A stretch of 64,000 bases of DNA from Phytoseiulus persimilis (lineage: Eukaryota; Arthropoda; Arachnida; Mesostigmata; Phytoseiidae): positions 16,178,745 to 16,242,744 of the forward strand of contig CM075102.1 in the NCBI GenBank assembly GCA_037576195.1. The letters are read 5' to 3'. Made by a program: the position numbers and the translations under genes. The notes below the pieces were generated by a model. That model was not told where the DNA came from, searched no databases, and saw only the letters and a list, made by a program, of their open reading frames with translations. Shown piece after piece: positions 20,301 through 24,928 of this stretch (the first letter of the stretch is position 1; each line of letters begins with the position of its first letter).

Positions 20301-23300
20301 GCGGCTGCTGGGCGCGACCGGGGAGCAAGGAGGAAAAAAAAGACGAGGGAAAAAATCCGAATTAGATTGTGCAACGGAGCGTGTCTGGTTCGCGTGTAGC
20401 CTCGCTCCGCCAACCGGAGACAGGCTTATATCTCCAGAACGCAATCTGCCACTATGTGACTCCATGTGCGCGATCCGGCACTACAGTGCACCTGAAGGCC
20501 TCGCGTAGCCTTCCGTGAGCATGGATGTTGCCCCGGTCCGCTTTTCCGAGGACAGCGCGTTGATCCAATGGAACCTGACTTGATTGGCTTCCCGGAACCC
20601 TTCGTTCTCTTCGTCCTCCGGCATCGAAGACGCATGCTCCGAACCCGGTGCCTCAACGGCAGTGTCACCAGCGACTTTCTTTGGGCTTCGGGCGGAGGTC
20701 AGGGCCAGGCCTTCGCCTATCCATCACCGGAGAAGTCATTCGGAGCGGAAGCGTGGCGAAAATCCCTTGGAAGCCAACTAGACCTGAGGGTATACCTCGG
20801 TAGATGAAACGGCAAAAAGAGACGTTCCCCTTGAGATTGGTTGCAACAACGCTGCGGCGTCCCGGATGGGATGGAAGCCACGAAGACCTGCGTGATTAAT
20901 GGCGCATACTCAAACGTAGTCCCCCTTTCGGCGCATATGCCCGAGCTAGCGCCAGGTCGGGTTTGAGGAAAACGGCCGCAGTCTTTCGGGTGCCGAAGAT
21001 TCCCATTCCACCGGATGTTTCCGAATTGAAAAACTAGCCTGAGCGCCAAAATGATGTAGCTTTGGAGCGTTTCCAGAGGACGCAACCTCCGAGACGCAAT
21101 TTCATTTTGAGGTTGGCTCGAGATGCAGCACAGACAGCGTGTCCAATTTTCCGCTACGGGGCTCTTATGCTCCCAACTGAGCTCACTGCGACCATCTGAT
21201 CGCGGAACACACCGAGACTAGGTATAAAACGGAGAAAAGAACGAAAATCGAGCTCTCCCGGGCGAACTCAGTGCTTCCAAGGTTTGTTCCGAGCCGCTCG
21301 AGACTGCGGGAGAACGGGGAACGCGTCGGCCTTGAACCTCGCGGTGTGGTCAGAAACGACAAATCGGCCACGAGAACCCGGAACGTTCCAGCACCGCTCA
21401 TAGAGATCAGATGAACGCTTTTTGATGGTCGTTCGTTGCCGTTACAGATAATTCTCTATCAGCCGTACGGGAAGTCAGTCGACTGGTGGGCCTACGGTGT
21501 CCTTCTGTACGAAATGCTTGTGGGTCAGCCACCGTTCGATGGCGAAGACGAAGAAGAACTTTTCGCGTCCATCACAGACCACAATGTATCCTATCCCAAG
21601 GTGAGTTAGACTCGGAATTCTCTCTCCTCGTCCTGCGGGCAAGCTCGGTCTCCCGCTGGCTGAATCAGCCGTCTGCATGTTCAGTGCAGAAAAGCGAGTG
21701 CTGAGCCCTAATCGGAACTCGATTGAAACAGGCGCTATCGAAGGAGGCGAAGGAGATTTGTAAGGGTTTCCTGCAGAAAAACCCACAGAAGCGACTGGGC
21801 TGCGGGGCGAATTCGGGGGAAGAGGATGTCCGAAACCACCCGTTCTTCCGAAGAATTGACTGGCACAAAATTGAAAACCGTGAAGTACAGCCGCCCTTCA
21901 AGCCCAGAATCGTGAGTATCCTTTCCGAGCATTTGATTTCAAATGAGCATGTCTGGGAAGTGAGACAGTCGCTTCCGAGAACTGATAGCGCATGCTGGCT
22001 CGAAGTTCGAGTGCTGAGAGCATAGAGGGCGTACCTACCTGTGTTGCTTTTTCCGATAGCCGTACCACGTTGCCCGGTTCCGATAGAGTCCACGGCTAAC
22101 CGTGGACGCGACTTCTAATCGAGAGCTAATTAAGATGATTTTGTAGATTACTTTCCGAGCTGTTTTTTTTTGTGTCTCCGCTTCGTCCGATCGCATTTTA
22201 TTTTTGCGTATTTCGTTAGCGCTGCCTGCATCCAAGCTAGTTTCCAGCGCTAGAATGTGTTGTCAATGCCTTCGCGATTTTCACCCGTTGCTTGCGTTGA
22301 TTTGTGCTAGCGAACTTTTTCATGGCGACATCTTAGAGTGTTTTCCGTTGACAAAGAGTCTCATGCGCTCACGGTCTCGAGAGTCCATCGCCCAATGATT
22401 GCTTCGACAGAGCAGCACTGAGTTCGGAACCAACTCAATCAGCGATGACGGGGGAGTGTTCAGTTCTCTCCGGTCGATTCCACCCCTGGAGAAGAACCGT
22501 GGGACGGCTCCACTCTGACCATGCACATAACCAAAGGAGAATGGAATCGGACTCGGAGCTTCAGGAGAAAGATGTTACGATGCACATCGGATTCCGAAGC
22601 GCAATCAGCGTGGAGCCGATCGAGACCAGCAGCGTCCTAAGGTACCTTCCTCTCCCAAAGGGCGGGAACGGGTCGTTTCCCACTTTTTTGAGAGCGTTCA
22701 ACCGTCAGTGATGATTACCATCGACACGGGACCACATGAAAATATCGAGGAAAAAAATTGGGGCGATGCTCTCGCAGCGGCCGCGCCTGTGATGGGGATT
22801 CATGCGCCCAGATCAACGGTCGCCCCTCTTGAGCCCCAGTCATGGCATTTGGATTCAGTTTGGTGAGAACCGCTGGCAACTTGGATTTTGATTTTGCCTC
22901 GGTTTCGAGTGATCGAGACTTGTTTTCGACATCGGAGAAGCAGAACACGACAAGTGTTTTTCTGTGAACTTTCCAACGCGATCTCTTACATGCGTGATAT
23001 CTACCAACCGTGCGTACCATCTATCGAAACGGGCAACTTGGGCAGGTTCGCGCGCGTTAGAACGAATTAACAAGACAACGCAGAATTCTCAAACGAATGC
23101 TTACAGAACGATGCTCGAAAAGCGGAAAACTTCGACGAACACTTCAGAAAAGCGGATGTTAAACTTAGCTGCGCAGACAAGCAAGTCATGGAGGCTGCAC
23201 AAGGTCTCGGTTTCGAAGGCTTCGACTTCGTCAATCCTCACTTCGAAGGAATATCGCTTTTCCCGAAGTAGTCGACGACGAATCAACCACACAGCCAGTC

Positions 23301-24928: not shown

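Follow-up and report, generated by a model that had tools for sequence, protein, structure and literature searches.

Two putative alternative C-terminal tail exons in an arthropod conventional protein kinase C gene, one of them altered at three priming sites

Introduction

In vertebrate PRKCB, the last common exon is joined to one of two C-terminal tails. The betaII exon lies upstream and has its own stop codon, and betaI is the last exon; in mammals, when the betaII cassette is included, the last exon becomes untranslated (PMC3537621, accessible part). PRKCB is also listed, together with Drosophila Pkc53E and C. elegans pkc-2, as a gene with tandem exon substitution events in the available text of a survey, where most of the human/fly exon-pair coincidences are judged to be convergent (PMC9741552). 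Four Pkc53E proteins have been described; their N-terminal sequences differ, with variation in C1, and no C-terminal variants are named in the accessible part of that paper (PMC10318518). The survey text gives no position for the Pkc53E and pkc-2 events, and the pkc-2 exon variants are not located in the available portions of two C. elegans papers (PMC11620748, PMC5444632).

The tail is also the site at which PKCs are primed. According to the accessible sections of two papers, mTORC2 acts at the TOR-interaction and turn motifs and autophosphorylation occurs at the hydrophobic motif (PMC12721161, PMC10903481). In atypical PKCs the hydrophobic motif has a Glu that mimics phosphorylation (PMC10743896, available text). 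Pin1 binds the phosphorylated turn and hydrophobic motifs of alpha and betaII, an interaction tied to down-regulation in the accessible part of PMC11060717.

The locus described here resembles PRKCB in that the last common exon faces two tails at a homologous residue (KPRI here, KPKA in the betaII and betaI entries of the PDB). The order also agrees with that of PRKCB, in so far as the upstream tail leans, weakly, to the alpha/betaII type; the downstream tail is plainly betaI-like. The locus differs from PRKCB in its upstream tail. In PRKCB the Thr, Thr-Pro and Ser of the priming sites are intact in both tails, whereas none of them is unchanged in the upstream tail here. Like Pkc53E and pkc-2, it is a conventional PKC gene of a protostome. 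Since the variants of Pkc53E are N-terminal in the accessible description, the C-tail pair found here is regarded as a further example of the PRKCB type, new in this gene, in which one of the tails is strongly modified. No paper on alternative C-tails in an arthropod conventional PKC was recognised among the matches listed from the open-access literature.

Results

The window, which is the whole stretch of DNA analysed (64,000 nucleotides, G000:C2:16178745-16242744), belongs to a genome of 181 Mb in 127 contigs. It carries most of a conventional PKC gene on the + strand, from 8.3 to 24.9 kb. An exon with the pseudosubstrate-like RKGALKKKN and the start of C1A is located 4.6 kb upstream of the window (locus L009). 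The exons common to both tails are as follows.

8313-8486, + strand: end of the C1A region and first part of C1B; reads ...LIHQ, donor CAG/gtgagc, 5' boundary approximate
8994-9104, + strand: second part of C1B
9819-10009, + strand: first part of the C2 domain (PF00168, 61.2 bits at G000:C2:16188581-16188763)
12896-13112, + strand: second part of the C2 domain (PF00168, 29.9 bits at G000:C2:16191656-16191784)
17385-17501, + strand: kinase N-lobe, glycine loop and catalytic lysine region; 5' boundary approximate
19470-19660, + strand: kinase exon
19841-20042, + strand: kinase exon with RDLKLDN, DFG and the activation loop
21448-21600, + strand: kinase exon
21732-21911, + strand: last common exon, ending ...PPFKPRI in phase 0; donor ATC/gtgagt, compatible with both tails

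Tandem C1 domains, a C2 domain, an AGC kinase domain and a V5 tail are thus present in the order of a conventional PKC. C1B (exons 8313-8486 and 8994-9104) has its best PDB match in PKC beta (E 2.1e-54), followed by alpha and gamma, and the last common exon joined to either tail matches alpha and beta best. By these comparisons the window carries the 3' portion of a gene for a conventional PKC of the PRKCA/B and Pkc53E type, nearest to alpha, beta and gamma and not to the novel or atypical PKCs. The presence of a conventional PKC suggests an animal source for the sequence.

A single conventional-type locus was found among the genome matches (scored: 55 of 55 C1 candidates, 23 of 23 for C1B, 150 of 339 for the kinase). 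A second conventional PKC was sought elsewhere in the genome, and the other PKC-like loci were read by eye, with no family search, as belonging to other classes: L010 as epsilon-like, L016 as delta-like, L003 as PKN-like, L004, L007, L008 and L017 as Akt-like, and L013 and L014 as atypical-like. L006, L015 and many weaker kinase matches fall outside this labelling. One conventional PKC is therefore counted, because the remaining PKC-like loci look epsilon-, delta-, PKN-, Akt- or atypical-like, the kinase search being scored for 150 of its 339 matches.

Downstream of the last common exon are two homologous tail exons in the same phase (0), each with its own stop codon and each fitting the donor at 21911.

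23107-23271, + strand: tail exon 1 (tail 1), a divergent, alpha/betaII-leaning V5 tail with stop codon, following an AG acceptor
24776-24928, + strand: tail exon 2 (tail 2), a canonical betaI-like V5 tail with stop codon, following an AG acceptor; FT, LTPTD and GFSF sites all kept

Tail 1 is open for 54 codons, has its stop at the expected place and both splice signals, and retains the core motifs NFD and FEGF-FVNP. Pfam Pkinase_C recognised tail 1 alone with 24.0 bits and tail 2 with part of the preceding exon with 54.6 bits (cut-off 20.9). A profile was built from five PKC tails (alpha, betaI and betaII from the PDB, and two from this genome, the epsilon-like and the delta-like one) and run against six-frame ORFs of at least 20 codons from 74 kb. 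Tail 1 was found with an E value of 2.4e-9 and tail 2 with 4.5e-21; the next best match had 0.69, and no third tail was found in the locus by this profile over these ORFs. In a genome-wide Pkinase_C search at E<=0.001, tail 2 is among the matches listed and tail 1 is absent from them, which marks tail 1 as the more divergent. A search of the same genome with tail 1 itself (E up to 10) returned, besides tail 1, only tail 2, which is 36% identical to it, and the epsilon-like tail, which is 33% identical.

Codon usage was scored with a table trained on 510 codons of this PKC gene. Tail 1 scored +0.125 in its own frame, while each of the five remaining frames scored below zero; of 1258 overlapping windows presumed to be non-coding, 0.16% attained its score. 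Tail 2 scored +0.163, a value attained by 0 of the 1258. The nine training exons gave 0.131-0.303, being scored on their own training data.

These results bear out what had been read from the letters of the locus by the sequence-only reading, namely a conventional PKC with two intact tails. Both tail exons and the donor at 21911 hold with respect to phase 0, AG acceptors and stop codons, and Pfam, the profile E values and in-frame codon use agree. The likeness to PRKCB drawn there, two tail exons on one donor, also stands. The acceptors had been called good. An AG is present at both, but the description is generous: each has 9 of 17 pyrimidines, the seven other scored acceptors of the gene have 7-16, and the AGs of the intron (n=167) average 8.5, with 54% of them equal to or exceeding the tail acceptors. 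The acceptors of both tails are ordinary. From this arrangement we infer that the pre-mRNA would be spliced to one tail or the other.

Two signals lie between the tail exons.

24315-24320, + strand: candidate 5' splice site CAC/GTGAGT, score 11.0 with the gene's own donors
24346-24351, + strand: AATAAA, the sole AATAAA or ATTAAA within 23001-27500

The donor score at 24314/24315 is reached by 0 of the 229 GTs of 13200-17200. If this strong donor-like site is used, tail exon 1 would possibly be a cassette of 1.2 kb that is spliced on to 24776, which is the PRKCB layout. The AATAAA at 24346 could instead make it a terminal exon. Thus, in contrast to the vertebrate gene, where the upstream exon is a cassette, both a cassette (donor 24314) and a terminal exon (AATAAA 24346) fit here. 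Either signal could be due to chance, because the + strand of the window has 11 AATAAA and 25 GTGAGT. For tail 2, no AATAAA or ATTAAA was found within 2.5 kb past its stop.

The affinity of the tails was examined over 42 gap-free columns in seven sequences (tails 1 and 2, alpha, betaI, betaII, epsilon-like and delta-like). Tail 2 is identical to betaI at 30 of 42 positions and to alpha and betaII at 20 each. For tail 1 the identities are 17 with alpha, 17 with betaII, 15 with tail 2, 14 with betaI, 13 with the epsilon-like and 12 with the delta-like tail. When the PDB was searched with tail 1 only, alpha (22.1 bits, E 0.0012) and betaII (20.4) ranked above betaI (16.9). In the same search, atypical PKC iota (18.2 bits) also stood above betaI; this ranking may therefore reflect general PKC features. 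In a BLOSUM quartet, a crude, unrooted measure uncorrected for rate, betaII paired with tail 1 and betaI with tail 2 in 9837 of 10,000 bootstraps; with alpha in place of betaII the count was 9905.

Seven given topologies were compared on the same seven sequences and 42 columns with IQ-TREE (LG+G4). In the best of these trees, tail 1 joins alpha/betaII, and tail 2 joins betaI. The branch of tail 1 is by far the longest, with 1.6 substitutions per site, and the node placing it has a support of 50. It had been suggested from the letters alone that the arrangement may have arisen independently of PRKCB. This origin is not favoured: the strictly independent tree, in which the two tails of the window form one group and the PDB tails another, falls 8.3 log units short of the best (AU p=0.032, SH p=0.09), and the quartet goes the other way in 98-99%. 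Trees linking tail 1 to tail 2 or betaI fare better, with AU p values of 0.18-0.39. They place tail 1 beside tail 2 plus betaI (2.4 log units worse, p=0.39), sister to tail 2 inside a betaI-type clade (3.3 log units worse, p=0.33), or with betaI (p=0.18). Tail 1 beside the outgroup gave an AU p of 0.054, and all seven trees survive the SH test. Taken together, these comparisons argue firmly for a betaI affinity of tail 2 and lean weakly towards tail 1 as an old alpha/betaII-type tail. They suggest, with less certainty, that the two form an ancient betaII/betaI pair and not a new invention.

Other features of the exons were considered as markers of origin. Seven residues precede NFD in tail 1, tail 2, betaI and the epsilon-like tail, and six in betaII and alpha. 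The phase-0 junction was dropped as proof of PRKCB orthology: the epsilon-like gene has it likewise (KPKI), and so, apparently and by eye, does the delta-like gene, so that a KPxx junction common to these genes is no argument for orthology. A recent duplication was also sought in the nucleotide similarity of the tails, and the best blastn match was only 26 bases at 77%. In pattern searches for relatives, 0 of 8 matches in viral contigs were relatives. One of 43 matches in genome contigs was a 33-residue stretch in a bacterial frame, not kinase-like, and was taken as chance. The telomere pattern TTAGG, sought as a mark of an arthropod genome, gave no match in a search that passes over simple repeats.

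The most unusual feature of the locus, as read from the alignment, is that three priming sites are altered together in tail 1. The residues were assigned to the three motifs by alignment and from general knowledge of PKC tails. The TOR-interaction Thr is replaced by Arg (codon 23146-23148), the Thr-Pro of the turn motif by Ser-Cys (23167-23172) and the Ser of the hydrophobic motif by Asp (23224-23226). All six other aligned tails (tail 2, alpha, betaI, betaII, epsilon-like and delta-like) keep Thr, Thr-Pro and Ser. The canonical sites of a conventional PKC tail, i.e. the TOR-interaction Thr, the turn-motif Thr-Pro and the hydrophobic-motif Ser/Thr, are therefore present in tail 2 and absent in tail 1. 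Tail 1 thus lacks the Pin1 sites in their usual form and is predicted to escape Pin1.

Parts of this pattern are seen in other PKCs. Tail 1 is like the atypical PKCs in having an acid at the hydrophobic motif, although that acid is Glu there and Asp here. In human PKC theta, Leu stands in place of the TOR-interaction Thr, and the Ser of the turn motif lacks the Pro (EFLNEKPRLSFADR). Like tail 1, it has an LS-x-AD turn motif that is not preceded by Thr. Single site losses are hence not unique to tail 1, since human PKC theta is without two of the three sites. The atypical PKCs and PKC theta are, however, separate genes; here a conventional PKC has both features in a single optional tail. We know of no case in which an optional tail of a conventional PKC has all three changes, and none was recognised among the matches listed from the open-access literature. 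The changes in tail 1 are not mentioned in the sequence-only reading, whose account of a PRKCB-like conventional PKC with two intact alternative tails is otherwise retained, its independent origin being the less supported part.

Several other loci were noted during the searches. In the PKN-like locus L003 (G000:C4:2164018-2164149, - strand), the tail ends FDNFTFMGDWC, with a phosphorylatable Thr at the hydrophobic motif. Human PKN presumably has Asp at this position, in which case L003 would show the change of tail 1 in the opposite direction. An Akt-like kinase gene, labelled by eye, is present in three neighbouring copies at G000:C1:32677968-32698493 (one on the + and two on the - strand). 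The copies L007 and L008 are near identical, further Akt-like loci occur at C1:26024659 and C2:7175034, and together the loci have the appearance of an expansion. Atypical-PKC-like kinase frames are present on different contigs in L013 (5153-5572) and L014 (5293-5586). Neither locus is among the 16 Pkinase_C matches listed at E<=0.001; their tails may accordingly be missing or very divergent. Within the window, matches to the SCAP N-terminal family PF24006 (93.4 bits, 49593-50072) and the SCAP beta-propeller PF24017 (108.1 bits, 51847-53115), on the + strand, suggest that 49593-53115, downstream of the PKC gene, is probably a gene for the sterol sensor SCAP. An open frame of 729 codons on the - strand (39736-41922) has no Pfam family above the cut-off.

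Discussion

We consider it probable that, in the conventional PKC gene whose 3' portion lies in the window, the donor at 21911 is joined to either tail and the choice of tail sets the maturation route; that the tails are an ancient pair is held with less certainty. With the tail at 24776, the kinase would be primed by mTORC2 and by autophosphorylation. With the tail at 23107, the hydrophobic motif would be permanently acidic, as in atypical PKCs, and the mTORC2 sites would be absent. The resulting isoform would be expected to mature without mTORC2 or Pin1 control and to differ in stability and location. In its strongest form this proposal is that splicing toggles one conventional PKC between an mTORC2-primed tail and an acidic-motif tail without mTORC2 or Pin1 sites, two maturation routes otherwise split among PKC genes. 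In this form it is offered tentatively, as an idea with less than an even chance of being right. The loss of all three sites could equally mark decay.

Two other histories of tail 1 were weighed against this reading. It is rather unlikely, though still a serious candidate, that tail 1 is a lineage-specific, fast-diverged duplicate of the tail 2 exon that is still functional, its likeness to PRKCB being convergent. Only 3.3 log units separate the best tree from the one in which tail 1 is the sister of tail 2 (AU p=0.33), and only 2.4 separate it from the one that puts tail 1 next to tail 2 plus betaI (AU p=0.39). Moreover, because the KPxx junction is common to another PKC gene of this genome, a later duplication of the terminal exon would fall at the same place, and convergence is the verdict on most human/fly coincidences of such kind in the available text of the survey cited above (PMC9741552). 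The seven-residue prefix before NFD, which tail 1 has in common with tail 2 and betaI against six residues in betaII and alpha, points the same way. As the epsilon-like gene has the same prefix, however, it may be the old state. The duplicate is further opposed by the quartet bootstraps of 98-99% for tail 1 with betaII or alpha, by the AU p of 0.032 for the strictly independent tree, and by the lack of extended nucleotide similarity between the exons beyond the 26 bases at 77%.

That tail 1 is a relic, a former alternative tail now unspliced and drifting and for that reason without its key sites, is improbable. The three altered priming sites, the low identity to any conventional PKC tail (14-17 of 42) with its long branch, and the ordinary acceptor would be in keeping with drift, as would a codon score (0.125) below those of tail 2 (0.163) and of all nine training exons (0.131-0.303, on their own training data). 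Against drift, the 54 codons are open with the stop in the right place and both splice signals kept, NFD and FEGF-FVNP are intact, and codons are used in frame, unlike in non-coding sequence. Nor do the changes look random: Ser to Asp is of the phosphomimetic kind, comparable to the Glu of atypical PKCs. That tail 1 is due to misassembly, or is a fragment of some other PKC gene misplaced in the intron, is very improbable indeed. No point in its favour was found, tail 1 lies in the right orientation, order and phase, and the search of the genome with tail 1 (E up to 10) gives only itself, tail 2 and the epsilon-like tail.

The reading of two alternative tails on one donor has consequences that depend on use and age. 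If tail 1 is silent, it would be an ordinary exon relic. If both tails are used and the pair is old, the tail choice of PRKCB would date to the bilaterian ancestor and not to vertebrates; if the pair is new, the same layout would have been reinvented in the same order. In the case of use, the divergent tail would be a natural experiment, in which one animal has the same kinase domain with and without the three priming sites.
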